64,000 nt of DNA from Gammaproteobacteria bacterium. Its GTDB lineage: Bacteria; Pseudomonadota; Gammaproteobacteria; Burkholderiales; Sulfuricellaceae. A program made the position numbers and the translations under genes. The stretch is from assembly GCA_018823025.1 (NCBI GenBank), contig JAHJJI010000089.1:1-64000 (forward strand), read 5' to 3'. Positions 6,211 to 31,270 of the stretch are shown here, one piece after another; position 1 is the first letter of the stretch; the number at the start of each line of letters is the position of its first letter. The notes beneath the pieces were generated by a model that saw only the letters and a program-made list of their open reading frames with translations, was not told the DNA's origin and made no database searches.

Positions 6211-6232
6211 GGAATATCTCGGTGACCTGAGC

Positions 6233-9350: not shown

Positions 9351-10274
9351 TTACTGGTATTGATGATAGTTGACCGGCAACGCCACAAATGATGACGTCT
9401 CTGCCAGGTTGGGCAAGAAGGGGTGGGTGGGTTTCCTGTAAAGGGAGGTGACTTTTCGTACGTAGTCCCTAGTTTCGGGATAGGGAGGAATCCCGCGGTG
9501 CCTTTCCACCGCCCGTTCCCCAGCGTTGTAGGCCGCAGCCACCAGCGGTACGTTGCCCTTGAAGAATGCCAGCAGCCATTGCAGGTAGGCCAGCCCACCC
9601 TTGATGTTTTGCGCCGGATCGAAGGCATTTTTGACGCGGAAACGATGAGCCGTTTCGGGAATAAGTTGCATCAGGCCTTGTGCATTTTTAGGCGATATGG
9701 CTCGCACGTTAAAACCGGATTCGACCGATATAATCGCCAAAACCAGCTGGGGATCTACCGAGTAGCTGGGCGACAGTTGTTGCACCAGGTCGAAGATGGG
9801 ACCTTTCGGATAGACCTTTGCATCCACCGGCTCCGGACCGTTTCCCGTTTCCGGCTTGGATTCCTCGGGCAACAAACAGCGTGGCAACGATGTCGCTGCA
9901 GAAGAGCGCGTATAGCGCACCATTTCCCGCGCGTGACCATGCCCCTGTTCGGCCGCCATAGCAAATAAATGCGCGGCCACCCCATCGTCGCGGGAAACGC
10001 CGCGTCCATTGGCATACATCCAGCCAAGGGCAAACTGGGCATCGGCAAAGCCAAGGCGGGCGGCGCGACAATACAAGTCTGCCGCCTTGGCAAAATTCTG
10101 CGTTACGCCCTCGGCATGTTCGTACTTTACTGCCAACGCGACCAGCGCCCCAGAATTGTCCAAACTGGCTTCCTGCACCGCCAGTGGTGGGCGCGGATGG
10201 TCGTCGGCGCCGGCACTGCTGACACACAAGACCCACGCTACCAGCACTACCAAGAGCTTGCCTGAAAAAGCCAT
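9351..10274 (-). CDS. Sel1-repeat lytic transglycosylase (SLT domain)
   Basis: This 307-residue exported protein has an N-terminal signal peptide cut near SSAGA-DD. Two Sel1-like repeats follow (about 42-115: YEHAEGVTQNFAKAADLY, LGWMYANGRGVSRDDGVA), then a lytic transglycosylase domain (about 160-285). The catalytic Glu is in ISVESGFN, with GLMQLIPETA and AAAYNAGERAV as the other family motifs. It would cleave murein to 1,6-anhydro products in the periplasm, making room for envelope or secretion assemblies. The start is ATG 10274 with GGTGAG upstream. A -24/-12 promoter lies 44 bases upstream, so it probably belongs to the PrsR/RpoN regulon. Confidence 0.9.
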   Translation of the reverse strand: MAFSGKLLVVLVAWVLCVSSAGADDHPRPPLAVQEASLDNSGALVALAVKYEHAEGVTQNFAKAADLYCRAARLGFADAQFALGWMYANGRGVSRDDGVAAHLFAMAAEQGHGHAREMVRYTRSSAATSLPRCLLPEESKPETGNGPEPVDAKVYPKGPIFDLVQQLSPSYSVDPQLVLAIISVESGFNVRAISPKNAQGLMQLIPETAHRFRVKNAFDPAQNIKGGLAYLQWLLAFFKGNVPLVAAAYNAGERAVERHRGIPPYPETRDYVRKVTSLYRKPTHPFLPNLAETSSFVALPVNYHQYQ

Positions 10275-10318: not shown

Positions 10319-10333
10319 GCAAGTTTCACGCCA
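10319..10333 (-). promoter_or_regulatory. Sigma54 promoter of the lytic transglycosylase gene
   Basis: Read on the minus strand, TGGCGTGAAACTTGC has the -24 GG and -12 GC elements with the required 10-base spacing (consensus TGGCAC-N5-TTGC). It ends 44 bases before ATG 10274. Upstream at 10348-10357 lies TGTAATTATA, also present before the PEP-CTERM gene promoter at 18811. Confidence 0.65.
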
Positions 10334-10613
10334 AAACATAATTTTCTTATAATTACAACAGATTAACCAACAGCGCTCGACGCCTGACAGCGATGTGTGT
10401 AAAAAATACCGACATTATTCGGAGCCTGGCATCACCAACCTAAACGCCACAAGCAACGCACTCACTTGCATTTTGTTGTTAAGAGATTACGACAGCCATG
10501 ACCTTGGCAACCTTGACTCCCCTTTGGGCAAGGTCTATCAATAAATAATAATAAATAATAGAATGTGTTATGAGAGTCTTTCTCCATTCCCGTCTAAATT
10601 TAAACATTTGGTC

Positions 10614-13492: not shown

Positions 13493-16372
13493 ATGAAGAA
13501 ATACGCTGTTGCGCACCCCTGTACACGCTGGGACTCCGCAATTCTCAAGCATCCAGCAAGATCGATCATGCGCCACTTCAGCCTGATGATTCTTCTCCCG
13601 CTTCTATTACTGGCTGGTCTGTCCCCAATCAGCGGCTGTAGCCGCAATCTAACTCCTGTCGAACATGTCACAAAGGCCAAGGAGCACATGGACAAAGGCG
13701 AATATCGCCCAGCACTTATTGAATTAAACAACGCGCTTCAAAAAGATCCCAACTCGGTAGAAGGGCGCTGGTTACTAGGTAAAGTCGCAGTAAATCTGGG
13801 TGATGGCGCCCGCGCAGAAAAAGAAATCAAAAAAGCCACTGAGTTGGGTTTGAAGCGCGCGTCAACACAGGTTACTTTAGTCAAGGCCATTCTGTTACAG
13901 GGCGACCTGGATCGGGTGATGACAGAAAGCGGCACACTGCCGCCCGATGTGTCTAAAACGGATCAGGCCGCTATCCTCGGACTGCGGGGACAGGCCTTTA
14001 TCGCCAAGGGCCAGTTCGACCTGGCGCAACAGGCCCTGGAGCAGGCCTTGCAAATCAAGTCCGATTCGGTCCCTGCATTGATCGGCATGACCGCCCTGCA
14101 TGGCTACCAGCGCCACTATGATATCGCCCGATCATGGGTAGAAAAAGCGCTGAAGGCGGATTCGTCCTCTGTCGATGCCTGGAGCGCTCTGGGAGATCTG
14201 GAACTGGCCCAGGAGAGGTTGGCAGAGGCGGAAAAAGCCTACGATAGTGCCATCAAGCACAGAGCTACACCCTATTTCGAACACGCCAAACGAGCACAAG
14301 TACGTACCCAGCTTAAAAAATTCCAGGAGGCGGCAGCCGACATCAAGGTCTTAAAAGAATCGGGGTTTAAAGACCATCCCTATGTGAATTACATCGCCGG
14401 GCTGAATTATTTCGCCCAGAAAAAATATCAGGAAGCGGCAACGGCATTCCAGGCCAGCTACCAGGCTGTTCCCGCCTTTCTGCCCAACAGAATCTACCTG
14501 GCCACCGCCCATCTCATGCTCGGCAACACCGAGCAGGCGCTCAATCATGCGCAACAGATTTTTGCGCTCGCGCCCCGCTCCAGAGCGGCTAAAAACCTGC
14601 TTGGCAGCATTCTGATCAGCCGAGTCGAATACGATGGCGCAAAAGGCATCCTGCAAAAAACCCTGACCAATTCCCCCAATGATCCCCAGGCACTGGGCAT
14701 GATGGCCACCGTCTCCATGCTGGAGGGCGAGACGGCAAAAGGGCTGGAATACGCCAAAAAACTTGCCGCGCTGGAACCCGACTCGAAACCGGCCCAGGAC
14801 ATGCTCATGGTGGCAAAACTGATGGCCGGTGAAGCGCTAGACAAGACTATCAGCCAGACCGGCAATCAGGCCGGCGCTACGGGCGATGCTTACACCCAGG
14901 AACTCATGCTGGCGCTCGCCGCCTTCCGTGACAACAAACTCAAGGAAACCCTCGAACTCGCCAAAGCGCTCCATGCCCGTTACCCGGACAAAGTTGACCC
15001 GCCCAAACTGATGGCAGCCTGCTATCTCGCCGCAGCCCAGTGGGATCAGGGCAAGGCCGAACTGGAAAAAGTCCTCAAGCTCCAGCCCAATGAACCCTCT
15101 GCCACCCGCAACCTCGCCAAGGTAGAAGCCCTGCAAGGCAACTATCCGCGGGCGAAAACCCTGCTGAAAGCCCTGCTGAAAGCCCAGCCCGGCGACACCA
15201 ATGCCGCACAGCTACTGGCCAGTGTCGATAGCCTGCTGGGCAATCCTGTTGCTGCCCTCGAGGTGCTGGAGCAGGCGTCGAAAAGTAACCCCAATGACCT
15301 GAACCTGCGCGCTCACCTCGGACAAACCGCTCTAACAGCGGGCCGCCCTGCCGCGGCGCTGGACATCACCCGCGAACTGACGGATGCCCAGTTTCGCCAG
15401 CAACCAGCGCTGCTGGAACTGCGCGGCAAAGCTCTGCTGTTGACTGGAGATAACGCATCCGCCGCCAGCACCTTCGAGAAGTGGACGAAAATCGCCCCTA
15501 ACTCTGCTCCCGCCCATTTTCAATACGCCAATGCCCTGGCCGGCCAGAATGATGCATCCCGCGCCCGCAAAGCACTAGAGCAAGCGATAAAACTCGACCC
15601 CCGCTACCTGCCTGCTCGCGTGGGAGAAATCAAGATGCGCGCGCAATTCCGCGAACTGGATCAGGCAAAAAAGGCGCTCGCCAAACTCCGGCAGGATTTT
15701 GGCGACCGGGTCGAAGTGCTGAGCATCGAGGGATGGTTTGCGTTGGGTACCAACGATTTCCCTGTTGCCGAACAAAAATTTGCCGCGGCCCTCAAGAAAG
15801 CCCCGGCTTCGGAACTGGTTGTTCTCACCAGCCGGGCGCAGTGGGCACAGAAAAAACGGGAGCCCGCCCTCAAAACCTTGCGCGACTGGCTGAAGGACCA
15901 CCCCAATGATGTGCTAGTCCATATGCAACTGGCTGGCGCTTATTTGGATATGGGCAAGGACGCGGATGCCTTGGCAGCCTATGGCCAGGTCGTCAAAATC
16001 GTCCCCCAGCATGTGCCTGCTCTCAACAACCTGGCCTGGCTGAATCGGGACAAAGCCCCCAAACAAGCCATGGACTACGCCCAGCAGGCCTATCAATTGG
16101 CTCCCCAAGACCCCTACGTGCTTGATACCCTGGGCATGCTGACACTCAAAAATGGCAATCCGATGCGCGCCGTCAGCCTGTTGCGCGATGCCGCCACCCG
16201 TGCCCCGGCCGATCCCAAAATCCAGATGCATCTGGGCAACGTGCTGGTCCAGCAGAAACGCTTTGGCGAAGCGCAGAAAGTCCTGGAAACCCTGATGCAG
16301 AAGCATCCCAACACGCCTGAGGCCAAGGAAGCCCGCACTTTGTTGGAGTCATCCCGCAGCTCGGGACGCTGA
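13493..16372 (+). CDS. Second PrsT-type TPR lipoprotein
   Basis: This 959-residue protein is a PrsT homologue: a hydrophobic stretch ending at SGC-SRN (lipobox-like), then TPR units over nearly the whole length (ALIELNNALQKDPNSVEGRW resembles AIIQLKNALQKTPDDAEARY of the first copy). The start at 13493 is favoured by GGGAGGA nine bases upstream, overlapping the prsT stop. It leaves a long 50-residue leader; ATG 13568 (MRHFSLMILL) would give a more usual signal peptide but has no good ribosome site. Co-transcribed with prsT and the glycosyltransferase. Two tandem but diverged copies suggest division of labour, or hetero-assembly. Confidence 0.9.
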   Translation: MKKYAVAHPCTRWDSAILKHPARSIMRHFSLMILLPLLLLAGLSPISGCSRNLTPVEHVTKAKEHMDKGEYRPALIELNNALQKDPNSVEGRWLLGKVAVNLGDGARAEKEIKKATELGLKRASTQVTLVKAILLQGDLDRVMTESGTLPPDVSKTDQAAILGLRGQAFIAKGQFDLAQQALEQALQIKSDSVPALIGMTALHGYQRHYDIARSWVEKALKADSSSVDAWSALGDLELAQERLAEAEKAYDSAIKHRATPYFEHAKRAQVRTQLKKFQEAAADIKVLKESGFKDHPYVNYIAGLNYFAQKKYQEAATAFQASYQAVPAFLPNRIYLATAHLMLGNTEQALNHAQQIFALAPRSRAAKNLLGSILISRVEYDGAKGILQKTLTNSPNDPQALGMMATVSMLEGETAKGLEYAKKLAALEPDSKPAQDMLMVAKLMAGEALDKTISQTGNQAGATGDAYTQELMLALAAFRDNKLKETLELAKALHARYPDKVDPPKLMAACYLAAAQWDQGKAELEKVLKLQPNEPSATRNLAKVEALQGNYPRAKTLLKALLKAQPGDTNAAQLLASVDSLLGNPVAALEVLEQASKSNPNDLNLRAHLGQTALTAGRPAAALDITRELTDAQFRQQPALLELRGKALLLTGDNASAASTFEKWTKIAPNSAPAHFQYANALAGQNDASRARKALEQAIKLDPRYLPARVGEIKMRAQFRELDQAKKALAKLRQDFGDRVEVLSIEGWFALGTNDFPVAEQKFAAALKKAPASELVVLTSRAQWAQKKREPALKTLRDWLKDHPNDVLVHMQLAGAYLDMGKDADALAAYGQVVKIVPQHVPALNNLAWLNRDKAPKQAMDYAQQAYQLAPQDPYVLDTLGMLTLKNGNPMRAVSLLRDAATRAPADPKIQMHLGNVLVQQKRFGEAQKVLETLMQKHPNTPEAKEARTLLESSRSSGR

Positions 16373-17667: not shown

Positions 17668-18708
17668 TCAGACGTGATTCTTGCGGCGGGCCGATACCAC
17701 CAAGCCCAAGAGGCCAATCCCCATCAGGGCCAGCATGCCAGGTTCAGGCACGCGCGTTACCAGAGTGGAAGTCAAGGCATTCAGCGTCAATGTCCAGGTA
17801 CCCGCAGACAAACCCGCGGTGTTGATTCCATAAGACCCAAGACCATATGCCCCAGGCCCCCAACTGGAATCGGCAGCAGTACCGTTGGTAGAGGTACCAA
17901 CATTGACGTTGAGATCTTCAGTGTCAGTTCCGGCCATTTCTACACAAGTAAGACCTAGGCCAGCAGCAATGCAATCATTGACACCTACAGTCCCCTGCGG
18001 GTTCCAGTTAATGAAGCCACCACCGCCATCTTTTTGCAGCGTAAAGGAAGTGTTCATATTGGCCTGCGCCTGGTAGGCGCCTGGAGCTTCGCCAAAAATC
18101 GCCGCCCGCATATCAGGGTCAGCGAGGAAGGACAAGTCCAGCGTGGCCGAGGAACCCGTAACCTGGAACGTAAAGGTAAACGAGGTCGTAGATTTGATCT
18201 CGGCATTGGCTGCTGCCGCGCCACTGTTTGAAATCAGGGATTCTGCAATCTGGTTGGTGCTGGACGGCAAGCCATTAACCAGTTCAGCCGTGTAAATGAC
18301 CGAGTCGGAATTAGACCAGTTGCCAGCCAGGTTAGCCGGGGTATCCCCGTAGAAGGTGAAGGAATTGGCCGTGGTGGCATTGTTGGCACGGGTGACAACG
18401 GTGCTACCCGGTGCATTCACCGCGTTAGCGTCCAGTACCGGGGATACTCCACAGTTATTGGAACCCGGCGTACCGAAACAGGTCCCGGTGGCGATACCGC
18501 TGACGCCGTTGAGGGTAGCGGTATTGGTCAGGTTGAAATTGAAATTGAAGCCGCCGACCGAGCCACCCGCACCTGGGTTGATGCTGATAATAAGGTCTTG
18601 CATATTCAGCCCTGAGGCTGCGTACACATAAGCGGCCGCCTGCTGGCTGACGCCCAGAGCGAGTGCGGCTGTTACGGCTGCCGCCAGCACTGATTGTTTA
18701 ATTTTCAT
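17668..18708 (-). CDS. PEP-CTERM sorting-domain surface protein
   Basis: This 346-residue secreted protein has a clear signal peptide (MKIKQSVLAAAVTAALALGV, cut near QAAA-YV). A low-Cys body rich in Asn, Gly, Ser and Thr follows. The C-terminal PEP-CTERM tripartite signal is VPEPG, then LALMGIGLLGLVVS, then ARRK. It would be processed by an exosortase of the XrtA type, not encoded in this window. The start has AAGGAGAT upstream. A near-consensus sigma54 promoter ends 102 bases before the ATG. The body shows no domain that I recognise; its function is unknown beyond being an exported, sorted protein, perhaps part of the extracellular matrix. Confidence 0.9.
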   Translation of the reverse strand: MKIKQSVLAAAVTAALALGVSQQAAAYVYAASGLNMQDLIISINPGAGGSVGGFNFNFNLTNTATLNGVSGIATGTCFGTPGSNNCGVSPVLDANAVNAPGSTVVTRANNATTANSFTFYGDTPANLAGNWSNSDSVIYTAELVNGLPSSTNQIAESLISNSGAAAANAEIKSTTSFTFTFQVTGSSATLDLSFLADPDMRAAIFGEAPGAYQAQANMNTSFTLQKDGGGGFINWNPQGTVGVNDCIAAGLGLTCVEMAGTDTEDLNVNVGTSTNGTAADSSWGPGAYGLGSYGINTAGLSAGTWTLTLNALTSTLVTRVPEPGMLALMGIGLLGLVVSARRKNHV

Positions 18709-18810
18709 GATTATCTCCTTACGTAGATTGATTAATTACTTAACCAGTGCCAATGTCGGGTTGTACTAAGATCTATGTAACGGATCATTGCACTTCGTAC
18801 ACAATCATAA

Positions 18811-18825
18811 GCAATTGGTGTGCCA
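18811..18825 (-). promoter_or_regulatory. Sigma54 promoter of PEP-CTERM gene 17668-18708
   Basis: On the minus strand TGGCACACCAATTGC is an exact TGGCAC-N5-TTGC. Its last base lies 102 bases from ATG 18708. TGTAATTATA follows four bases upstream (18830-18839). The rest of the gap up to 19075 is AT-rich to about 18890 and shows no convincing gene. Confidence 0.8.
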
Positions 18826-19075
18826 TGTATATAATTACACGTATAAACAATATGTTATAAAATATGATTGGGATTTCATCGTGAACCGGCGTCAATACCG
18901 TAAAAAAAACCGACGGTCATTGCAGCGGGTATGTGAACGATGCGACTACGGGGAGAGCCAATGAATACAAGGCTTTTGAATGGGTGCTGCCTGCATGGCC
19001 ACGTGTATCGACACCTTCCAGGGGTTGCATCGACTTTCGAGTGTAAATTATTCCGACGTTGCCCATTTAGTGGCG

Positions 19076-19732
19076 CTATCTGAGGCGTTTTGCCGGCACG
19101 CCGCCCCAGACCTCATTCGGTCCGATATGGGTGTCTTTAAGTACCACGGCACCTGCCGAGACGATAGCCCCATCGCCGATCTGCACTCCGGACATGATGA
19201 CGGCGGTGGCGCCGATGGTGACGTTGTCGCCAACCCGGATGCGGGAGAGGGCAAAATGCTGGCCCTCGATGGCATGGCAAAACAACACCGCATCATGGCC
19301 GATGATGCAGTTGGCGCCGAACTCGGTGAGCGGCGGATCAAGGAGGGTGCCGGCGCTGTAGGTGTTTTCGCCCAAGCGTGCCCCCAGCGCCAGATACACT
19401 AAGCGCATCAGCGGCACCGGCAGGAAGTGGGTGCGAATCAGGCTGTTGAAAAGCATCAGGTAGAACAGGATGTTGACCTGAGCGGCGAATTCCTCTCGCG
19501 AACCCTCGGCCAGTTCGCCCTCTTTGAGCGGCATGAAATGCAAAAACAGCCGGTACACGGCAAAGCCGTACAAATAGACAAGCACGATCGCCCCCCCCAC
19601 TACGCTGACACCGCGAAAATCCCCTAACGGCAACGCCCCCAGCAACCCATATGCAGTAATGATACCGAGCAGCAGAATACTGCCGAAAAGCAGAAAAAAC
19701 AGCGTGATTTGCGGCGGGGTGATTTTGCGCAT
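19076..19732 (-). CDS. Membrane-anchored hexapeptide-repeat acyltransferase
   Basis: This 218-residue protein has two N-terminal membrane helices (about 10-32 and 42-65). A left-handed beta-helix domain of hexapeptide repeats follows (FGANCIIGHDAVLF, RVGDNVTIGATAVIMSGVQIGDGAIVSAGAVVLKD), ending in the family's WGGVPAKRL. Enzymes of this type O- or N-acetylate sugars; the membrane anchor suggests work on lipid-linked or nascent polysaccharide at the inner membrane. It begins 24 bases after the glycosyltransferase at 19757-20977 and forms an operon with it. The substrate cannot be told. Confidence 0.85.
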   Translation of the reverse strand: MRKITPPQITLFFLLFGSILLLGIITAYGLLGALPLGDFRGVSVVGGAIVLVYLYGFAVYRLFLHFMPLKEGELAEGSREEFAAQVNILFYLMLFNSLIRTHFLPVPLMRLVYLALGARLGENTYSAGTLLDPPLTEFGANCIIGHDAVLFCHAIEGQHFALSRIRVGDNVTIGATAVIMSGVQIGDGAIVSAGAVVLKDTHIGPNEVWGGVPAKRLR

Positions 19733-19756
19733 GACTTTCCTCCTGACCGAGCTTGG

Positions 19757-20977
19757 CTAACCCAAAACTTCCGAAACGAACGCCCGAAAACGTTGCCCGG
19801 TATCCACTTGCCTGAACCGCTCGCCCGCCTGCACGGCTGCCTGAGCGTAGACGGGGGTTTCAAGCAGGGCACGGACAGCTTCTTTCAGTTGGGCGGATCG
19901 GACACACGCTGCCCGCAGGGATAAGCCCGCGCCCAAGAGTTCGATGGCGTTCATGTTGAGCAACTGATCCATGTTGGAGCAGATTCCCAGGATGGGCACC
20001 CCAGTGGCTAAAGCCTGGTAGGTGGTCAGGCTGCCGCCATTGCAGATGACCAGGCTTGCGCGCTGAGCAACGATATCCAGTGGCAGATAGTCGGCCACGA
20101 AGGCATTGGCGGGCACATCAGGCAGGTCAATTTTGCCTGCGGTGGCGGCTATCACAGTGATCGGCAGTTCAGACAAGGCGAATAAGGCCATCGGCAACAA
20201 GTCCGCTCGGCCCGAGCTGCCCAGGGTCAACAATACCACGGGGTTTTTGTCCGGCAGGCGATCCCACCAGTCCGGCAGGGGCGCGCGAGCAGACCAGAGT
20301 GGCGGACCAAGATAACGGTGGTTGGCAGGCAACGGTCGTGTGGGAACCAACTCGGGCACATCGGCATACAGGGTGTAATCGCCCCAGGCGTAGACATTTC
20401 TTAAATCCGACCCCAGCGGCGGCAGCCCGTAATGACGGCGCACCCGGTTCAAGGGTCGGGCATGCAGGGCAAAGGCCATGGGCCTGACGGTGTCGAACAG
20501 TTTTTGCGCCAGGCGGACGCCCAGAATCCGGGTCATGGGCAGATCGGGTACCGGATAGACAGTGTCGGCGAACGGGCTCCAGTAGGCATTAACCAAGGCG
20601 GCATAGGGGATGCGGCGCAGCGGCGCGCTCACGGCCAGCGACAGCCGGAAGTCTCCGACCACCAGATCGGGTTTGACGCTGTCGAGCAGCACCAGGTCGT
20701 CTTCGACGTACTGGGTGAGCGTCTCGACGCTATACAGTGGCTTGCCCCGGGCAAGGGCTTGTGCGAATTCGGCGGAGGGGATGGATCGAATGGGATGGAA
20801 GGCGCAGTCAAGCGGCGCTTCCAGGTCAGCATAGCGGGGGTCCGATGCGACAACCACTTCGTACGCAGCCGGATCGAGCGCCTTCGCCAGCGTTACAATC
20901 CGCGCGAAATGCGCAAGCGTGACCGCTTCAGCAACAAGAAGAATGACTGGCTTGTTTCGGGTTTGCATTACACTCAT
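19757..20977 (-). CDS. GT1-type (MGT-like) glycosyltransferase
   Basis: This 406-residue GT-B glycosyltransferase is related to the one at 16379-17581. The N-terminal region (ILLVAEAVTLAHFARIVTLAKAL) is the acceptor half. The donor half has VVLLTLGSSGRADLL and LVICNGGSLTTYQALATGVPILGI, where the usual GGxGT is GGSLT. The start could be ATG 20977 or ATG 20968. It is the first gene of a two-gene minus-strand operon with the hexapeptide transferase. It is divergent from the permease operon across 266 bases in which I see no gene or -24/-12 motif. Confidence 0.85.
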   Translation of the reverse strand: MSVMQTRNKPVILLVAEAVTLAHFARIVTLAKALDPAAYEVVVASDPRYADLEAPLDCAFHPIRSIPSAEFAQALARGKPLYSVETLTQYVEDDLVLLDSVKPDLVVGDFRLSLAVSAPLRRIPYAALVNAYWSPFADTVYPVPDLPMTRILGVRLAQKLFDTVRPMAFALHARPLNRVRRHYGLPPLGSDLRNVYAWGDYTLYADVPELVPTRPLPANHRYLGPPLWSARAPLPDWWDRLPDKNPVVLLTLGSSGRADLLPMALFALSELPITVIAATAGKIDLPDVPANAFVADYLPLDIVAQRASLVICNGGSLTTYQALATGVPILGICSNMDQLLNMNAIELLGAGLSLRAACVRSAQLKEAVRALLETPVYAQAAVQAGERFRQVDTGQRFRAFVSEVLG

Positions 20978-21243
20978 TCGCGGGAAAGTAATACCATAAC
21001 ACAGTGATTATTTTGTATTATGGCTCATGCAATGAAATTAGTGGGAGTTCACCCGGATGCGTGGCATCACAAGGATAACCCGACGGTCAATACGAAGTGC
21101 GCCGAAGCCGCGAGCCACAGGCGTGACTGGTCGTGCATCCATCGCTCGCAGCCCGGATTGCCACGACTCCTTGGCTTTCGTAAGGACGCTATTCCGGCAA
21201 TTATTGGATTGCTCAATTGAAGATTCCACCACAGGGGCGTTCC

Positions 21244-22467
21244 ATGGCTAACCTGCTGATTGCTGCGCGCAACCTTGCACGCAATCGGCGGCGGGCACTG
21301 TCAGCCTTGCTTACGGTGGCTGCCGGCGTTGTTGCGCTGGTGCTCGCCGACGGCTTCACTCAGTGGATTTTATGGGCGATGCGCGAAGGTACGATCCAGT
21401 CCCAATTAGGCCACATTCAGGTCATGCGACCCGGATATCTCAAAGCGGGCGCGGCCAATCCTTATGCTTATGTATTGCCGGAGAGCTTGCCGCAGCGCAA
21501 AGAGATCGAATCCACTCCCGGCATCAAGGTGGTGGCGCCAAGGCTGGCGGTGACCGGGCTCATCAGCCACGGCGAGACGACAATAGCTTTTGTAGCGGAT
21601 GGTGTCGACCCGCAAAAGGAGGCGCTGTTGAGCAAGGCATTCCGTATCGTGGATGGCCATGATCTGTCGAGCCTGACTGCCCAGGAGGTGGTGCTGGGGC
21701 GTGGCTTGGCGCGCAATCTCGGGGTAACCCAGGGTGCCACCATAGCACTGCTGGCAACCACTTCAGGCGGTAGCATCAACGCTGTCGAGGCGAAAGTCGC
21801 CGGGATATTTATCAGCGCCAATCAAGCCTACGACGATGCCGCTCTGCGTCTGCCCATCGGCTTGGCACAGTCACTGCTGCGCGTTAACGGCGCCCACGCC
21901 TGGCTGGTGCTGCTCGATGACACCGAGCGCACGGACGATTATCTCACCCAGTTCCGCGCCCGCTTCCCCATGCCGGAGAATAAGCTAGAGTTCGTGCCCT
22001 GGTACCAGCAGGCAGATTTCTACAACAAGACGGTGGCGCTGTTCTCGCAGCAGATGAACGTGCTGCGGCTGATCATTGGCTGCATTATCGTGCTCAGCAT
22101 TTCCAACATGCTGGTGATGAATGTGCTCGAGCGTACCGGCGAGATCGGCACGCTGCTGGCCATTGGCTTTAAGCGCAAAAAAATCCTTCACCTGTTCGCC
22201 ATCGAGGGACTGTTGCTCGGGCTGGCCGGCGCATCTCTGGGGCTGGGCGCCGGCTACGGGCTGGCCGAAGCGATCTCCGCGATTGGCATTCCCATGCCAC
22301 CGCCCCCCGGCATGGAAGAGGGTTACACCGGCGAAATCCGGGTCACCTTGAACGTGGTGATAAATGCGTTTCTGATTGCATTCATCACCACTGCGCTGGC
22401 GGGTTTGTATCCGGCATGGAAAGCTTCGCGCCTGCAAATCATCAACGCGTTGCGTCACAATATTTGA
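21244..22467 (+). CDS. FtsX/LolCE/MacB-type ABC permease, first copy
   Basis: This 407-residue inner-membrane permease has the MacB/LolC topology: one N-terminal helix (LSALLTVAAGVVALVLA), a large periplasmic domain of about 220 residues and three C-terminal helices, ending WKASRLQIINALRHNI. The frame extends to TTG 21217, but ATG 21244 with AGGGG upstream is the better start. It shares the motif MPPPPG followed by GYT and IR with the permease 14 bases downstream, so the two arose by duplication and probably form a heterodimer. The ATPase is likely the FHA-ABC protein at 24671. Type VII ABC systems of this kind extract lipoproteins or export molecules mechanically; cargo unknown. Confidence 0.9.
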   Translation: MANLLIAARNLARNRRRALSALLTVAAGVVALVLADGFTQWILWAMREGTIQSQLGHIQVMRPGYLKAGAANPYAYVLPESLPQRKEIESTPGIKVVAPRLAVTGLISHGETTIAFVADGVDPQKEALLSKAFRIVDGHDLSSLTAQEVVLGRGLARNLGVTQGATIALLATTSGGSINAVEAKVAGIFISANQAYDDAALRLPIGLAQSLLRVNGAHAWLVLLDDTERTDDYLTQFRARFPMPENKLEFVPWYQQADFYNKTVALFSQQMNVLRLIIGCIIVLSISNMLVMNVLERTGEIGTLLAIGFKRKKILHLFAIEGLLLGLAGASLGLGAGYGLAEAISAIGIPMPPPPGMEEGYTGEIRVTLNVVINAFLIAFITTALAGLYPAWKASRLQIINALRHNI

Positions 22468-22481
22468 GGACTGCGTAAGCC

Positions 22482-23693
22482 ATGTTCAAGCTCGCCTTCC
22501 GCAACATCTTCCGCCAGCGTTTGCGCACTGCACTGACACTGGCGGCAATCATCACCGGGGTGGTCGCCATCATCATCAGCGGCGGCTTTGTCGAGGATGT
22601 GTTCGTGCAGCTGCGCGAATCGACAATCCATTCGCGCATCGGGCACGTGCAAATTTTGAGGAGCGGCTATCTCGAGTACGGTCGGCGCGACCCGGCGCAT
22701 TATATGATCGCGCAGCCGAAGGACGTAGTGGACGCGGTACAGTCCATTCCGCATGTGCAGGCCATGATGACCCGAGTAAACTTTTCCGGGCTGGCCAACA
22801 ACGGACGCGCCGATTTGCCCATTATCGGCGAAGGCGTTGAACCAGGCAGGGAAGCGCAACTGGGAACAGCCACCACCATTGTTGCCGGCCGCCCGTTGAA
22901 GGATGCGGACACCTTCGGCGCCGTGATCGGTGAAGGTGTCGCCGCCGCCCTGCATCTGCGCCCCGGCAGCTTCGTAACCTTGATGGTGAATACGCCAGAA
23001 GGTGCACTGAACACCCTTGAGTATGAAGTCGTCGGCGTGTTCCGAACTTTCTCCAAGGATTACGATGATCGAGCCGTACGCATTCCGTTATCAGCCGCCC
23101 AGGAATTACTGTTTACCCGGTCGGTACATAGCGCTGTCGTGTTGTTGGATGACACCGCCGCAACCGATGCGGTGGCCGCGATCATCAGAGCCAAGCTGGA
23201 GCCACTCGGTTACGTCGTGAAGCCCTGGCATGAATTGGCCGATTTTTATCAAAAGACCGAGGCCCTGTACCGACGCCAGTTCGGTGCGCTGCAGGCTATC
23301 ATTCTTGTCATGCTGGTATTGAGCGTGGCCAGCACCATCAACATGGTGGTCTATGAACGCACCGGCGAATTCGGAACCCTGCTCGCTCTGGGCCTGCGCC
23401 GGCGCCAAATCTTCAAGCTCGTCCTGCTCGAAAATGCGCTGCTGGGCTTGCTCGGCAGCCTGGTCGGCGTGGTCGTGGGAAGCGTGCTTGCGAGCTTGAT
23501 ATCGGGCATCGGCATATCCATGCCGCCGCCGCCCGGCTCGAACGTGGGCTACACTGCTACGATTCGACTGGTGCCGTGGGTGCTTGTGATGGCGGCCCTG
23601 ACTGGCGCGCTGGCGGCGATTATGGCTGCCGTGCTTCCGGCTCGTCGCGCCTCACGCCTGCCGGTAGTGGAGGCGCTGCGCCATAATATTTGA
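22482..23693 (+). CDS. FtsX/LolCE/MacB-type ABC permease, second copy
   Basis: This 403-residue paralogue of the preceding permease has the same layout: an N-terminal helix (LTLAAIITGVVAIIISGG), a periplasmic MacB-type domain and three C-terminal helices (MLVLSVASTINMVVYERTGEFGTLLALG, NALLGLLGSLVGVVVGS and VLVMAALTGALAAIMAAV regions). It carries MPPPPGSNVGYT and ends RLPVVEALRHNI. Its stop lies nine bases from the convergent stop of the LolA-like gene, with no evident terminator between them. Confidence 0.9.
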   Translation: MFKLAFRNIFRQRLRTALTLAAIITGVVAIIISGGFVEDVFVQLRESTIHSRIGHVQILRSGYLEYGRRDPAHYMIAQPKDVVDAVQSIPHVQAMMTRVNFSGLANNGRADLPIIGEGVEPGREAQLGTATTIVAGRPLKDADTFGAVIGEGVAAALHLRPGSFVTLMVNTPEGALNTLEYEVVGVFRTFSKDYDDRAVRIPLSAAQELLFTRSVHSAVVLLDDTAATDAVAAIIRAKLEPLGYVVKPWHELADFYQKTEALYRRQFGALQAIILVMLVLSVASTINMVVYERTGEFGTLLALGLRRRQIFKLVLLENALLGLLGSLVGVVVGSVLASLISGIGISMPPPPGSNVGYTATIRLVPWVLVMAALTGALAAIMAAVLPARRASRLPVVEALRHNI

Positions 23694-23702
23694 AACACTG
23701 CT

Positions 23703-24515
23703 TCAGCGACTGAGTTTCTTCAGGTAATCCTTGGTGAATACCTTGTCCGGCAGGTCACGCATGACCATGTCGCCATATTCGAGCACCGAACGTCGACCGC
23801 GGCGCAAGGCATCTTCTATCACCAGTCGAGTCGGTCGCGTTTCCCCGCCCAGTGCACGAAACTCCTGGTAGAGGCCGGTTTTCAGCAGACGGCCCGAAAG
23901 CGCATAGAACTCGGCTTTATAAGGCCGACTGTTTTTTGAGTTCACCCAGAAGAGCACCTTGCGATATGTGACACCGCTATCGACTGCATCCAATTGTAAA
24001 ACGTGATAGGACTCACCATCGATTTTCTCTGTGCGCAGAAGTCTGGGTTCGTAATCACCCACAAAATTGGCGCGAGCCAGGTCGCCATTCGCAACCTGTC
24101 CGGTCAGTTTCTGCGAGAGCGGCAAACGAATCGGTTGTGACAGGTTGGGCAGGAAGGCCCACAGGTCGCGATCCCGCATCAGCAGAATCTGCCCCCGGTC
24201 AACCACCGGCGCCGTTGTCTGCACCAGGGTCTGGTCGTTACCTTTGGAGAGTATCCGGTAAGCGCGTACGTCTTCAGCGGCATCGGGTTCGGTTGTCGTG
24301 ATGGTCACGTCAACCTGGAAGCTTTCGTCAGGGAAACGGATACGGTCTGCGCGAGTCAGCATTTCACGAGCAACGGAATCTCCACCTGTGGTGTCGGCAG
24401 CCAGCGCCGGCCTGAAAATCAACAACAGCAGCGCGACGGCAAAAACCGTCCAGAAAGGCTTCCTCCGATAGCACGTAATAAAAATGTCGCGGGGATAAGA
24501 TGGAATCATAGCCAT
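23703..24515 (-). CDS. LolA-like outer-membrane lipoprotein-sorting protein
   Basis: This 270-residue protein has a signal peptide (FWTVFAVALLLLIFRPALA-AD). The mature domain has the beta-rich pattern of the LolA-like family often annotated as outer membrane lipoprotein-sorting protein: SFQVDVTITTTEPDAAEDVRAY, LLMRDRDLWAFLPNLSQPIRLPL, then YHVLQLDAVDSGVTYRKVLFWVN and TRLVIEDALRRG. These proteins carry lipid-modified cargo across the periplasm in a hydrophobic half-barrel. It sits on the opposite strand between the permeases and the ATPase. Its presence makes a complete inner membrane-periplasm-outer membrane route likely; it is not the housekeeping LolA by sequence or context. Confidence 0.85.
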   Translation of the reverse strand: MAMIPSYPRDIFITCYRRKPFWTVFAVALLLLIFRPALAADTTGGDSVAREMLTRADRIRFPDESFQVDVTITTTEPDAAEDVRAYRILSKGNDQTLVQTTAPVVDRGQILLMRDRDLWAFLPNLSQPIRLPLSQKLTGQVANGDLARANFVGDYEPRLLRTEKIDGESYHVLQLDAVDSGVTYRKVLFWVNSKNSRPYKAEFYALSGRLLKTGLYQEFRALGGETRPTRLVIEDALRRGRRSVLEYGDMVMRDLPDKVFTKDYLKKLSR

Positions 24516-24670
24516 AAGAGGTGTCCTGTCAGCTCAAAACGAATAAACTAAGATTATCGAATACTATATGATAAAGAGAATAAGTGGAGTCATGTGCATG
24601 CCAGGCAATAAGCAAAAATCTGAGTTTTGTCCGCGCCAGTATTGTTCCTGGACTACCAGAAGGAGGGGTC

Positions 24671-25654
24671 GTGGCTAGCCTCCTGATAAGTCAGGACCAG
24701 CAAATCCTGCGGAATATTCGACTCCACTCGGCGGACCTCAAGATTGGCCGCGCCTCGGAATGCGAGATACAACTGCCAGATCCGGGAATCAGCCGCAAAC
24801 ATGCGCGGATTACTTTAGTCGACGGCGTCTATTACCTGGAAGACTTGGGGAGCAGATGTGGCGTCTTCCTGAACGGAGAAAAAATCCAGCGTGCCCCACT
24901 GAAAAATGGCGACAAGCTCACGATTCACCACTTTCAACTGGATTTTGTTGCCGATGAAGAAAGCAATGCTGAACCTACGGCAGTAATCGTCGAGGCCAAA
25001 GGAGTAGGCAAAGAGTATGCCCTTGGAAAGCAAACCGTTACGGCATTGCGCAACATTTCCCTCACGATCCGTAAAGGCGAATTCATGGCGTTGGCGGGGC
25101 CGTCGGGGAGCGGCAAATCGACCATGCTCAACCTGATTGGCTGTATTGACACGCCGACCACGGGAAGCATCCTGATCGGGGGGCAGGACATCAGCGACAA
25201 AACACCCGATGAACTGGCCGATTTGCGACTGAACACGCTGGGTTTTGTCTTCCAGACCTTCAATCTGCTGCCGGTATTGTCAGCCTGGGAAAATGTCGAA
25301 TATCCCTTGTTGCAGCAACCTAATGTAACCAGAAAAACGCGGCAAGAACGCGTCCAGCATTATCTGAAGGTGGTTGGCCTGGAACCCTATGCGCACCACC
25401 GCCCCAACGAATTGAGCGGCGGGCAGCGCCAGCGGGTGGCGATCGCGCGCGCCCTCGCCACCCGTCCAAGCATCGTCCTGGCAGACGAACCGACTGCCAA
25501 CCTTGACCACAAAACCGGCGAAGGTATTCTCAGGCTGATGAAAGACCTCAACCAGGAAGAAGGCACGACCTTCATTTTTTCCACCCATGATGCGCGCGTC
25601 ATGGAGATGGCCGACCGGGTGATAGAACTGGCCGATGGCCAGATAATGGAATAG
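24671..25654 (+). CDS. ABC ATPase with N-terminal FHA domain
   Basis: This is a 327-residue cytoplasmic ATPase. The first ~100 residues are a forkhead-associated domain (LKIGRASECEIQLPDPGISRKHARI, then NGEKI), a phosphothreonine reader. The remainder is a LolD/MacB-type ABC domain with Walker A GPSGSGKST, Q-loop FVFQTFNLLP, signature LSGGQRQRVAIARAL, Walker B IVLADEPT and switch STHD. The start is GTG 24671 with AAGGAGGGG four bases upstream; the frame is open to 24584, but that extension has no ribosome site. The fusion implies control by a Ser/Thr kinase, or docking to a phosphorylated partner. It probably powers the two permeases upstream. Confidence 0.92.
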   Translation: MASLLISQDQQILRNIRLHSADLKIGRASECEIQLPDPGISRKHARITLVDGVYYLEDLGSRCGVFLNGEKIQRAPLKNGDKLTIHHFQLDFVADEESNAEPTAVIVEAKGVGKEYALGKQTVTALRNISLTIRKGEFMALAGPSGSGKSTMLNLIGCIDTPTTGSILIGGQDISDKTPDELADLRLNTLGFVFQTFNLLPVLSAWENVEYPLLQQPNVTRKTRQERVQHYLKVVGLEPYAHHRPNELSGGQRQRVAIARALATRPSIVLADEPTANLDHKTGEGILRLMKDLNQEEGTTFIFSTHDARVMEMADRVIELADGQIME

Positions 25655-25664
25655 GGAGAACACC

Positions 25665-27158
25665 ATGGGAGACCATTTTTTCCCAAAAACCCGATGGCTG
25701 GGTCAGCCACCAAGGTTTCTCGGGGTCTTGCTGCTGGGCCTGCTGATCACCCCCATCCCGGCGGGCGCAGCAGAAAAGAGCAAAAACCGCATGGATGTGG
25801 AATCCATCGACGACCTCTTTGGCAGCCCTCCCCCTGCCCCCAAGAAACCGGCAGAGAAAACCACCCCCCAGGACAAACCGACCGAAGCGCCGCAAGACAT
25901 CAGCGCACCTGCCGTGCCTGAATCCGTGCCGCCAAACCAGCCCTCATCCTCCGAACCGCACTTGGCCGGTTTTTATCAGAATGACCTGGCTTACACCTAT
26001 GCCGACAAAAAGCATTGGTCCAGATTCAACAACACCCTCGATCTCTCCACCCAAGGCCGCACGTCGGGTGGCGTGGCGTGGAAGCTGGGCGGGCGCGTCA
26101 ATTACGACCCAATCTACGACCTCGCCGACACCTACCCACAAGCGGTGCGCAATGATCAGCGTTTCGAGGCCATAATCCGTGAAGCCTATATGGATTTTTC
26201 GTCCGGCGACTGGGATTTTCGCTTGGGTCGACAGCATGTCGTCTGGGGCGAAATGGTCGGGCTGTTTTTTGCTGACGTGGTATCGGCCAAGGATATGCGC
26301 CAACTCGTGCTGCCGGATTTCGACATCATCCGCATCCCGCAATGGGCGGCGCGAGCCGAGTATTTTCTGGGCGATTTTCACGTCGAGGGCGTATGGATAC
26401 CCTACATGAGCTACGACAACATCGGCAAGCCCGGGGCCGAGTTCTACCCGTTCAATCCACCCGCCGTAGCCGGTACCGTCATTGCCGCGGAAAAACAACC
26501 CGTCGGCCTGGGTGAGGCGGCTTACGGAACGCGCTTGTCCTGGCTCAAGAGTGGCTGGGACGTTTCGGGTTTCTACTACACCGCCAACGATCCATCGGCA
26601 GCCTTCTCGCGCCAGATTGCGCTGCTACCCACCCCCACCATCACCTATCAGCCCATTCATGAGCGGATTCACCAATTGGGTGCCACTCTGGGCAAGGATC
26701 TGGGGCCGATGGTACTCAAGGCTGAGGCAATCTACACCAAAGACAAACTGTTCAACACCACCAGCGCCACCGATGCGGACGGCCTGGTCAAGCAAAACAT
26801 TCTGGATTACATCGTCGGGCTGGAATGGAGCTTTCCTCAGGAAACCCGCTTCAACGCGCAATTTTTTCAGCGCTGGTTCCCCGGCCACGATGCAGGCATC
26901 GTGCCGGACAAGACCGAAAGCGGTATCTCCCTCCTGTTCAGCACCCAGGCCCTGCACCCTAAGCTCGAACCAAAATTGCTGCTGATCCGGAGTTTAAACC
27001 GCGAAGACTGGGCCGCCCAGTTCAAACTCACCTGGAAACTGGACGGCAACTGGCGACTGGCAACCGGTGTCGATATTTTTACAGGGCCGCCAACGGGCCT
27101 GTTCGGTGCGTTCGACGATAAAGACCGGGTTTATACCGAGGTGCGCTACAGTTTTTGA
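25665..27158 (+). CDS. DUF1302-like outer-membrane beta-barrel protein
   Basis: This 497-residue exported protein has a signal peptide ending PAGA-AE. A Pro-rich linker follows (about 50-98, PPPAPKKPAEKTT and similar), then a long beta-barrel domain ending in VRYSF, whose C-terminal Phe is typical for Bam-assembled barrels. The segment WDFRLGRQHVVWGEMVGLFFADVVSAKDMRQ resembles the DUF1302 family. It starts ten bases after the FHA-ABC gene and is co-transcribed with it. Context suggests it is the outer-membrane end of the transport route; whether it is a channel or a receptor is open. Confidence 0.82.
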   Translation: MGDHFFPKTRWLGQPPRFLGVLLLGLLITPIPAGAAEKSKNRMDVESIDDLFGSPPPAPKKPAEKTTPQDKPTEAPQDISAPAVPESVPPNQPSSSEPHLAGFYQNDLAYTYADKKHWSRFNNTLDLSTQGRTSGGVAWKLGGRVNYDPIYDLADTYPQAVRNDQRFEAIIREAYMDFSSGDWDFRLGRQHVVWGEMVGLFFADVVSAKDMRQLVLPDFDIIRIPQWAARAEYFLGDFHVEGVWIPYMSYDNIGKPGAEFYPFNPPAVAGTVIAAEKQPVGLGEAAYGTRLSWLKSGWDVSGFYYTANDPSAAFSRQIALLPTPTITYQPIHERIHQLGATLGKDLGPMVLKAEAIYTKDKLFNTTSATDADGLVKQNILDYIVGLEWSFPQETRFNAQFFQRWFPGHDAGIVPDKTESGISLLFSTQALHPKLEPKLLLIRSLNREDWAAQFKLTWKLDGNWRLATGVDIFTGPPTGLFGAFDDKDRVYTEVRYSF

Positions 27159-27359
27159 GAAATCGCAAGTAAAACGGCCCCCAAATGTCGTTTATTAGGG
27201 CAGCGGCCACAGACCAGGTGAATCATGTCGGCTATTCGGATATGACCGTCGGAAAATTTTACAGTCGTGGACAGAAACCAACCCAACGAACTGAATCGGC
27301 CGCAGCACAAACAGTTAACACAATGTAATTCCATAGTATTTTGTCTTTTGTCCCGCAAC

Positions 27360-27374
27360 TGGCATGTTTGATGC
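27360..27374 (+). promoter_or_regulatory. Sigma54 promoter of the THxN PEP-CTERM gene
   Basis: TGGCATGTTTGATGC keeps the -24 TGGCA and the -12 TGC with a 10-base GG-to-GC spacing. It ends 102 bases before ATG 27477, the same distance as at the other PEP-CTERM gene. TGTAATT lies upstream at 27324-27330. The rest of the 318-base gap (27159-27476) shows no gene. Confidence 0.72.
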
Positions 27375-27476
27375 ATTGGATTCAGGTGAGAGTAGAACGA
27401 GAGTGACTAGTGCAGTTCAGTCATCATGTATCTGGCTCGGCTTTTCCTTGCTGCTTTTCCATCAGGAGTCCGCATC

Positions 27477-28298
27477 ATGAAAACTCTAAATATGAAACTT
27501 AAGTTACTGCTAGCTGCCTTTGCCGCCCTCGCAGCCTGCAACGCCTCTGCAGGCTTGATCACCCAGTGGACGGTGGGCGTCAATACGATCTTCGATACCA
27601 CAACCGTAGTGCCGATACCGGGTGTCACCGTGGTCAATAACCAGACCCTGCGGTGGGGCACCAGCACAGGTTCCGGGCAAAGCGGGCTGAATATCACCGA
27701 TTCACCCAGCTCGGCCACCGTCTTCACCGATGGCGCCGCCGTTGCCAATGTATCGATTACCCACTTGAACCGGCCGGTCACCGGAACCTCTCTCAGCTCC
27801 GTTGATATATTGTCCACCTTGACACTGACGCCATTGGTTCCCGCACTTCCTGGACTGCCTTCGGCAACCATCACGTTCGGGGTCAACTTCGCGGAGACCC
27901 CCAACGGCGATAACCCATGCGCCGGCGGAGGTGCAAACGGTGTAGGCGTGAACATAAATGGCTGTGCCGATGTTTTCGTTATCGACCAGAATGCACTGAA
28001 CTTCGGCTTCATGTACGACACCGATGGTATCGGCGGAGATGATCCAGTTCAGTACTACATCAGCTTCTTCGAGCTCACCAGCGGACTCAACCCGCTGCCT
28101 TCTGTTGCCTGTGGTGCTGCTGGATCAACCGCACCTTGCCTCGGCTTCAGGACTCCGGAAGGGGCGGATACGACTTTCCAATTCGCATCGCTGATTACCA
28201 CCGAGCGTGTTTCAGTTCCCGAGCCTGGCATCTTGTCCCTGATGGGACTGGGGTTGGCTGGCATGGTCTTCGCCTCCCGCCGCCGCAAACAGGCCTAG
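27477..28298 (+). CDS. THxN-type PEP-CTERM surface protein
   Basis: This 273-residue secreted protein has a signal peptide (MKLKLLLAAFAALAACNASA) and a C-terminal sorting signal of VPEPG, LSLMGLGLAGMVFA and SRRRK. The body contains NNQTLRWGTSTGSGQSGL, VFTDG and SITHLNRPV, fitting the THxN family of PEP-CTERM proteins. ATG 27477 is chosen over 27426 because AGGAG lies nine bases upstream and the signal peptide then has normal length. Expected to be cut and released or anchored by an exosortase coded elsewhere. Function of the family is unknown. Confidence 0.9.
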   Translation: MKTLNMKLKLLLAAFAALAACNASAGLITQWTVGVNTIFDTTTVVPIPGVTVVNNQTLRWGTSTGSGQSGLNITDSPSSATVFTDGAAVANVSITHLNRPVTGTSLSSVDILSTLTLTPLVPALPGLPSATITFGVNFAETPNGDNPCAGGGANGVGVNINGCADVFVIDQNALNFGFMYDTDGIGGDDPVQYYISFFELTSGLNPLPSVACGAAGSTAPCLGFRTPEGADTTFQFASLITTERVSVPEPGILSLMGLGLAGMVFASRRRKQA

Positions 28299-30400: not shown

Positions 30401-31270
30401 TCATTCTCCCCTAAGCAGGCGCTGCGTGATACCCAATTCATCATCATGCGAGAAAAAATAGGGGTAGATCGACCTCACACCAGTGGCGGCCGCCCCCATC
30501 CCGCCATAGCGGACTATCTGTTCATCCGCGTGGGTTGCATCCAGTCTCATCAGTACGGCTGGCGCATTGACCCTGGGGCACGTCTTTTCTTCTCCAAATG
30601 GTTCAAATCCCATCATGCGTTCATAGAAAAGCACATGGCGCGGATTCACTTCAATCAGAAAATCCGATGCGTGATGAATGTTGTGTCCATAAATGAATGC
30701 CATATGAAACAAAGAGGCCAATACACTTTTTGACTTGATATCATGATCCACGGCTAGCCGAGTGATATCGCAAAGTTTTCTTCCTTCTGCGCGCAGTTGA
30801 TCTGCTTCCTGCTTGTAAAGCTGGTCTACCACCATCCCTTGAGGGGAGTCCATGCCCAAAGACATTGTGCCCACCACTTTATCTTCCTGGTAGACCGCCA
30901 AGGTTATCTTGTTGGGATCATGTCTTAACGCATCGGCATCATAGCCGCGCCAGTCATACATTTTCTGGATGAGCAAACTGGCTGATTTACGGCGGTCTTC
31001 GCTGTTGGCAAGACGAACCTTGAAAACCTGCTGTTCGGCCTTTTCATCCTGCTGGTTCGCAATGTCCTGGGGCGCCGGTAAGGCGAGGTCTCTTAACCAG
31101 TTGGGTGCGAAGTTAGGCGAGAAGGCGACGATGGTTTTGTCCCATTCATCTGGCGTTCTATGGCGCTTCTTATTGCCAAAAAGAAATTTGCGAACATCCA
31201 GCATACTCCATGCATCCGCCTTCCTGCGGCCATGCATGATGCCAGAAAAGAAATTGTGTATATCAAGCAT
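30401..31270 (-). CDS. FeeM-like long-chain N-acyl amino acid synthase (GNAT fold)
   Basis: This 289-residue protein has a GNAT-type acyltransferase core of the FeeM kind: KVRLANSEDRRKSASLLIQ, ITLAVYQEDKVVGTMSLGMD, KLCDITRLAVDHD, then VNPRHVLFYERMMGFEPFG and CPRVNAPAVLMRLD. FeeM enzymes join a long-chain acyl group from acyl carrier protein to an amino acid. Such synthases have been reported linked to PEP-CTERM/exosortase systems in Gram-negative bacteria, which matches this context. An N-terminal ~95-residue extension (MLDVRKFLFGNKKRHRTPDE) is of unknown role. It is first in a three-gene operon with the ThiF-like and nitroreductase genes. The ribosome site at 31270 is weak. Confidence 0.82.
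   Translation of the reverse strand: MLDIHNFFSGIMHGRRKADAWSMLDVRKFLFGNKKRHRTPDEWDKTIVAFSPNFAPNWLRDLALPAPQDIANQQDEKAEQQVFKVRLANSEDRRKSASLLIQKMYDWRGYDADALRHDPNKITLAVYQEDKVVGTMSLGMDSPQGMVVDQLYKQEADQLRAEGRKLCDITRLAVDHDIKSKSVLASLFHMAFIYGHNIHHASDFLIEVNPRHVLFYERMMGFEPFGEEKTCPRVNAPAVLMRLDATHADEQIVRYGGMGAAATGVRSIYPYFFSHDDELGITQRLLRGE

Follow-up and report, generated by a model that had tools for sequence, protein, structure and literature searches.

Helically phased PrsR-box sigma54 promoters with a probable IHF element before two PEP-CTERM genes of a Sulfuricellaceae bacterium

The DNA analysed here, called the window, is a stretch of 64,000 nucleotides from a gammaproteobacterium of the Sulfuricellaceae (GenBank assembly GCA_018823025.1, contig JAHJJI010000089.1, positions 1 to 64,000). 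It contains two genes for PEP-CTERM proteins, A and B, each preceded by a -24/-12 promoter for sigma54 and, farther upstream, by a site resembling (weakly in gene B) the consensus of integration host factor (IHF) and a box attributed to the response regulator PrsR. Both proteins carry the C-terminal PEP, the hydrophobic stretch and the basic end of this class and score above the curated cut-off. A preliminary description of this DNA, made from the letters alone, had called them unrelated outside their sorting signals. This is borne out by the alignment, significant only in the last 40 residues (the sorting signal), and by their assignment to different NCBIfam families, NF041538 and NF038125. 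The features of the two upstream regions are as follows.

17668-18708, minus strand: gene A, EDSAP-1 family PEP-CTERM protein of 346 aa (NF041538, 289 bits; PF07589, 27.4 bits)
18709-18810, minus strand: leader of gene A, 102 nt
18811-18825, minus strand: sigma54 promoter (-24/-12) of gene A, TGGCACACCAATTGC, spacer from the PrsR box 73 nt
18845-18857, minus strand: IHF-like site of gene A, TAACATATTGTTT, 19 bp before the TGG; 8/9 of the reverse-complement consensus, weight-matrix score 10.7 against a shuffle 95% level of 7.6
18897-18917, minus strand: PrsR box of gene A, ACCGTCGGTTTTTTTTACGGT, ending in TTTACG
19040-19060, minus strand: second, distal PrsR box of gene A, AACGTCGGAATAATTTACACT, 143 bp farther upstream
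27245-27265, plus strand: PrsR box of gene B, ACCGTCGGAAAATTTTACAGT, ending in TTTACA
27316-27328, plus strand: weak, tentative IHF-like site of gene B, TAACACAATGTAA, 31 bp before the TGG; weight-matrix score 7.5 against a shuffle 95% level of 6.7
27360-27374, plus strand: sigma54 promoter (-24/-12) of gene B, TGGCATGTTTGATGC, spacer from the PrsR box 96 nt
27375-27476, plus strand: leader of gene B, 102 nt
27477-28298, plus strand: gene B, THxN family PEP-CTERM protein of 273 aa (NF038125, 226.7 bits; PF07589, 29.3 bits)

The GG-N10-GC geometry is present in both sigma54 sites, in agreement with the shared sigma factor proposed earlier. The promoter coordinates and the equal distances reported before were verified on the sequence: from the GC to the ATG (18708 for gene A and 27477 for gene B) there are exactly 102 bases in both cases. 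Gene B has an alternative in-frame ATG upstream at 27426, which would leave a leader of 51 nt. Since the start at 27477 has a CAGGAG and a signal peptide and that at 27426 lacks a Shine-Dalgarno sequence, 102 nt is the better choice. About 91 nt of the gene A leader would be transcribed if the +1 lies 12 nt past the GC. By themselves, the sigma54 sites are within chance, because TGGCAY-N5-WTGC is found 3 times in the window for 1.32 expected and 14 of 100 shuffles reach 3. The upstream boxes, in contrast, are beyond chance in the window: GTCG-N7-TTAC occurs 6 times for 0.69 expected, a count that none of 100 shuffles reaches. In the whole 3.35-Mb genome, the only sites matching the 21-mer box pattern with 0 mismatches are the boxes of genes A and B.

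For 99 of 167 proteobacterial PEP-CTERM genes, Haft et al. 2006 (PMC1569441) described an upstream motif 1 (17 nt, 3' end TTTACA) followed by a sigma54 motif 2. The spacer measures 62.8 +/- 10.6 nt (32-92) and the leader 71 +/- 38.5 nt (23-221), and PrsR was named as the probable binder of motif 1. The promoters of genes A and B are a case of this described type, because their upstream boxes are motif 1, but with a last letter G in gene A, and stand upstream of a -24 GG/-12 GC motif 2. They have in common with it the TTTACA-ending box, the sigma54 motif, the order of the two, the approximate spacing, the position before PEP-CTERM genes, the presence of PrsK, PrsR and PrsT in the genome, and repeated boxes. 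The 73-nt spacer of gene A lies within the published range, and the 96 nt of gene B slightly exceed its maximum of 92, the motif ends being defined somewhat differently here. Section 7 of that paper gives only a mean and a range for the spacer and no middle element, whereas we find a spacer quantised in steps of about 11 bp that carries IHF-consensus sites.

Because the matched lengths in 61 genomes fell into groups, a wider collection of box/promoter pairs was assembled. It comprises 186 distinct pairs, identical sequences removed, from among the matches listed, not every one of which became a locus. Pooled were 14 loci from the genome itself, 28 from the 61 genomes, at least 118 from a scan of 84,980 species genomes, 19 from 275 genomes of the class, 30 from 20 named genomes, and a few others; the searches covered spacers of at least 41 nt. 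The spacers form clusters with means of 42.7, 51.8, 62.6, 74.2, 84.3 and 97.1 nt (n = 6, 25, 80, 37, 19 and 19), and none falls at 44-49, 55-59, 68-70, 78-79 or 89-94 nt. A period of 11.22 bp fits best (bootstrap 11.04-11.44; R 0.72); for spacers below 91 nt it is 11.06 bp (10.77-11.34). In the PEP-CTERM subset, R is 0.78, and none of 500 smeared controls exceeds 0.27; PEP-CTERM genes were flagged and start codons chosen by regular expression and scoring rules, which mis-called at least one leader (length 0). Phasing is less sharp in pairs where no PEP-CTERM gene was recognised (R 0.53 in the first 130 pairs). Of the pairs in this group that are clearly out of phase, most come from contexts that are odd or lie outside the Proteobacteria (Bacteroidales 67, Omnitrophota 87 and Martelella 88 nt); off-phase pairs that do belong to PEP-CTERM loci occur in Tepidiphilus (87 nt) and Latescibacterota (80 nt). 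Reversed patterns gave 0 matches in the scans of the 61 genomes, the 275 class genomes, 32 genomes searched for longer spacers and the 20 named genomes. In these 32 genomes, which have known matches, spacers of 101-161 nt gave only two matches (108 and 145 nt).

Spacers at multiples of the helical repeat are what is expected of helically phased loops and, since they are limited to values about 11 bp apart, the box always lies on the same face of the helix as the promoter. The spacer of gene B is longer than that of gene A by two helical turns (96 versus 73 nt). The repeated boxes follow the same rule. A search of 182 loci gave 27 second sites within 250 bp of the first box, and 0 with the reversed motif; the distances of these second boxes to the first are phased with a period of 11.02 and R 0.64, a value reached by 0.05% of smeared controls. 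The boxes are of two types of upstream activating sequence, GTCGG and GTCGA. A match of these types to PEP versus PxPA sorting signals was considered and rejected, as no association was found (61:43 versus 7:7, Fisher p 0.57).

The IHF consensus is strongly enriched in the spacers. In reverse orientation, a 9/9 match is present in 18 spacers versus 0.9 expected from shuffles and an 8/9 match in 48 versus 14.3; in forward orientation, the counts are 8 versus 0.8 and 32 versus 14.2. Reverse sites of at least 8/9 are found in 66 of 186 spacers, compared with 15.9 +/- 5.4 (largest 36) for 300 permuted consensus strings. Per kb, they number 6.9 in the spacers and 1.2 in the leaders, and the 30 bp preceding the box contain none. 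The sites are also focused in position. In the 52, 63 and 74 classes, the reverse sites stop 17-18, 18-19 and 19-20 bp short of the TGG, respectively, and the modal pair of positions holds 37 of them versus at most 14 for permuted strings; forward sites end 6 bp before the TGG. The orientations replace each other, with 43 spacers of the 52-74 classes having only the reverse site, 22 only the forward site, 2 both and 75 neither (n = 142). Judged from the IHF-DNA structure, the bend would be centred on almost the same point in both placements. When a weight matrix built from spacers of 50-78 nt is applied to classes outside its training range, it places sites at 19-20 and 30-31 bp (84 and 97 classes) and at 8-9 bp (43 class). 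The gap from box to IHF site peaks at 21, 31 and 42 bp and, by subtraction, is about 53 bp in the 97 class. With the consensus of PMC7962754, sites of 8/9 are present in 76 of 118 spacers (118 among the matches listed) and in 35 of the other 68, versus 20.3 and 12.1 in simple shuffles. In the set as a whole, an IHF consensus tends to stand at a fixed helical position between enhancer and promoter, and in gene A it does. The gene B site matches 6/9 of the consensus by eye and is outside the two best consensus matches; its 31 bp are the usual position for the 97 class, and the putative sites of A and B are one turn apart (19 versus 31 bp). At the level of sequence, these promoters have a three-part anatomy of box, IHF-consensus site and predicted promoter, with whole-turn spacing.

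The phasing could be real and the AT-rich site in the spacer could reflect intrinsic curvature or binding of another protein, such as HU, Fis or a second regulator, instead of IHF. The spacers are indeed AT-rich (63% A+T background), several have no good consensus match, and other DNABII proteins are encoded. Permuted consensus strings, however, fall short of both the counts and the positional focus, and the two orientations substitute for each other, so that we consider this explanation unlikely. Still less likely, and in our opinion very improbable, is that the periodicity stems from common descent, a few old promoters having been copied along with their genes. Some loci do come from related species or paralogues, for example the repeated GTCGAC/ATAAA promoters of one genome (G344). 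However, the same clusters are present, by statistics without tree correction, in separate samples of alpha-, beta-, gamma- and deltaproteobacterial records, the spacer sequences are widely different, and the leaders of the same loci are not phased (132 PEP-CTERM loci, R 0.155 versus 0.158 for the mean of the null). The sample from the scan of 84,980 species genomes by itself gives a period of 11.08 and R 0.718 (n = 118 among the matches listed), and the remaining pairs analysed apart give 11.32 and 0.746 (n = 68).

The preliminary description had seen in the two 102-nt leaders a hint of a conserved length of the 5' untranslated region (UTR) or of a shared upstream architecture. The second idea holds and can be extended beyond what was seen then, to PrsR boxes, phased spacers and IHF-like sites. 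The first does not. A wide spread of leaders at other PEP-CTERM genes, which that description had named as speaking against it, was looked for and found. In the genome, 11 PEP-CTERM genes with a pair have leaders of 42, 61, 67, 99, 102, 102, 135, 149, 166, 375 and 421 nt, the start codons for 61 (no ATG start), 375 and 421 being uncertain. Over the 132 loci, the mean is 75.8 nt (standard deviation 53, median 62, interquartile range 46-88), and the published range is wide as well. Among 11 congeners, gene A has homologues in 3, of which L218 and L220 share its box and have an TGGCACAC promoter and a spacer of exactly 73 nt, with leaders of 92 and 96 nt. No homologue of gene B, and hence no leader for comparison, was found among the 11 other congeners. 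The 102/102 match is a coincidence and leader length is free. That leader length is itself selected, through a shared 5' UTR ruler or a UTR element, is scarcely credible and as a general rule already refuted: only 1.2% of random leader pairs of the PEP-CTERM set agree exactly, but a tie among 11 draws is expected in 51% of cases, leaders range from 42 to 421 nt within the same genome and differ between gene A homologues, and neither leader folds better than its own shuffles (z -0.44 and +1.30) or shares a structure with the other.

Activators of the NtrC type work from upstream sites through DNA looping, and IHF bends the DNA between them and sigma54 promoters (PMC7962754). The genome encodes RpoN, an IHF-alpha above the cut-off and an IHF-beta-like protein. 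We consider it highly probable that genes A and B have PrsR-box sigma54 promoters of the known type, and that these work through short enhancer loops in helical phase, with IHF as the probable bending protein. Phosphorylated PrsR would bind the box, and IHF would occupy the middle site and bend the intervening 43-100 bp of DNA. The AAA+ ring of PrsR could then reach the sigma54-RNA polymerase at -24/-12 and open the promoter, and loops as short as 43-100 bp would require exact helical alignment. Several observations weigh against this. The IHF-like site of gene B is weak, and 35 of the 142 spacers in the 52-74 classes (about a quarter) are without a 7/9 IHF match at either usual position, and therefore IHF may not be universal. 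In Geobacter, the PEP-motif gene GSU1943 is up about 3-fold in ihf mutants according to PMC7962754, which would argue against simple co-activation by IHF there. L219, the remaining one of the three gene A homologues in congeners, showed no such box/promoter pair. Finally, the genome encodes a second PrsR (L281, C31:3007-4329; TIGR02915, 733 bits), 79% identical to that of the window, so that the regulator of A and B could be either.

For the phasing, the best precedent is the qrr enhancers of LuxO in Vibrio. They share an NtrC-like activator, sigma54 and loop lengths clustered about 11 bp apart (61 natural enhancers; PMC4740811). That system concerns one genus and loops of about 80-120 bp, whereas here many proteobacterial classes, loops of 43-100 bp, another activator and IHF-like sites are involved. 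IHF-assisted RpoN promoters likewise have an IHF site between enhancer and promoter, but at enhancer-promoter distances described as 100-140 bp (PMC7962754), and no link to PrsR boxes was found in the literature consulted. The pepA gene of Aquincola tertiaricarbonis is also a PEP-CTERM gene with a TGGCAC promoter and a predicted upstream enhancer; RpoN dependence is reported for this one gene of the type, together with a mapped transcription start, and the passages of PMC9850573 consulted contain neither the phasing nor the IHF found here. No report of phasing or IHF at PEP-CTERM/PrsR promoters turned up in searches of the open-licence PMC literature. The promoter type is known; to judge from these searches, its helical quantisation and probable IHF element are new.

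The region also encodes the Prs system. The sigma54 activator PrsR, placed in the same region by the preliminary description, was confirmed by its TIGR02915 match.

2773-4125, minus strand: PrsR, response regulator and sigma54 activator (TIGR02915, 744.6 bits, cut-off 502.6)
4141-6261, minus strand: PrsK histidine kinase (TIGR02916, 903.1 bits)
10691-13486, plus strand: PrsT TPR lipoprotein (TIGR02917, 970.2 bits)
13493-16372: second TIGR02917 (PrsT-like TPR) protein, 624.6 bits

An EpsB_2 transferase is also encoded in the window. Adjoining the region of PEP-CTERM and exopolysaccharide genes, there is a gene for a FeeM-type N-acyl amino acid synthase at 30401-31270 (PF21926, 192.5 bits). The second PrsR is located near two more PEP-CTERM genes, both with box/promoter pairs. 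A third promoter of the same build was found in the window.

9351-10274, minus strand: Sel1/SLT lytic-transglycosylase-like gene (PF01464, 99.1 bits; PF08238, 49.8 bits), no PEP-CTERM signal
10319-10333, minus strand: sigma54-like promoter, TGGCGTGAAACTTGC, spacer 64 nt, leader 44 nt to the ATG at 10274
10353-10365, minus strand: IHF-like site, TAATCTGTTGTAA, 7/9 of the consensus, 19 bp before the TGG
10398-10413, minus strand: third PrsR box, GTCGGTATTTTTTACA

The Sel1/SLT gene is a probable PrsR target outside the PEP-CTERM set. Elsewhere in the collection, pairs precede other genes without a PEP-CTERM signal, with a spacer of 98 nt before a small protein of 72 aa (L060, C64) and of 85 nt before a protein of 248 aa (L068, C137:19851). 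A protein with a C-terminus similar to the latter is encoded in another genome behind a 97-nt spacer (L095), and in sphingomonad records promoters with a spacer of 43 nt stand before two alike proteins of about 80 aa, also lacking the signal (L099 and L164). In the genome itself, a pair is present at 10 of 17 PF07589 rows, the others having none or a weak one (one further gene, C112, was identified by its pair alone), and therefore some PEP-CTERM genes are probably under other control here.

It is tempting to extend this to PrsR-box promoters across the Proteobacteria, which could be modular whole-turn builds with about 21, 31, 42 or 53 bp from box to IHF site, about 8, 19 or 31 bp from IHF site to promoter and IHF in either orientation, and so among the shortest IHF-bent enhancer loops known. 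We put this forward tentatively, as somewhat more doubtful than probable. If true, the natural spacings (about 11.0-11.2 bp per turn) would be a reading of the helical repeat in living DNA, taken from loops much shorter than one persistence length. The pairs also form an extensive collection of natural data on short DNA loops. The coincidence of two leaders is replaced by a predictive rule, in which box and promoter are separated by an integral number of helical turns and the DNA between them carries a bend site. With this rule, the PrsR regulon, to which genes lacking a PEP-CTERM signal belong here, can be predicted more sharply, and IHF is added as a likely missing factor in the control of exopolysaccharide-linked surface proteins and floc formation.

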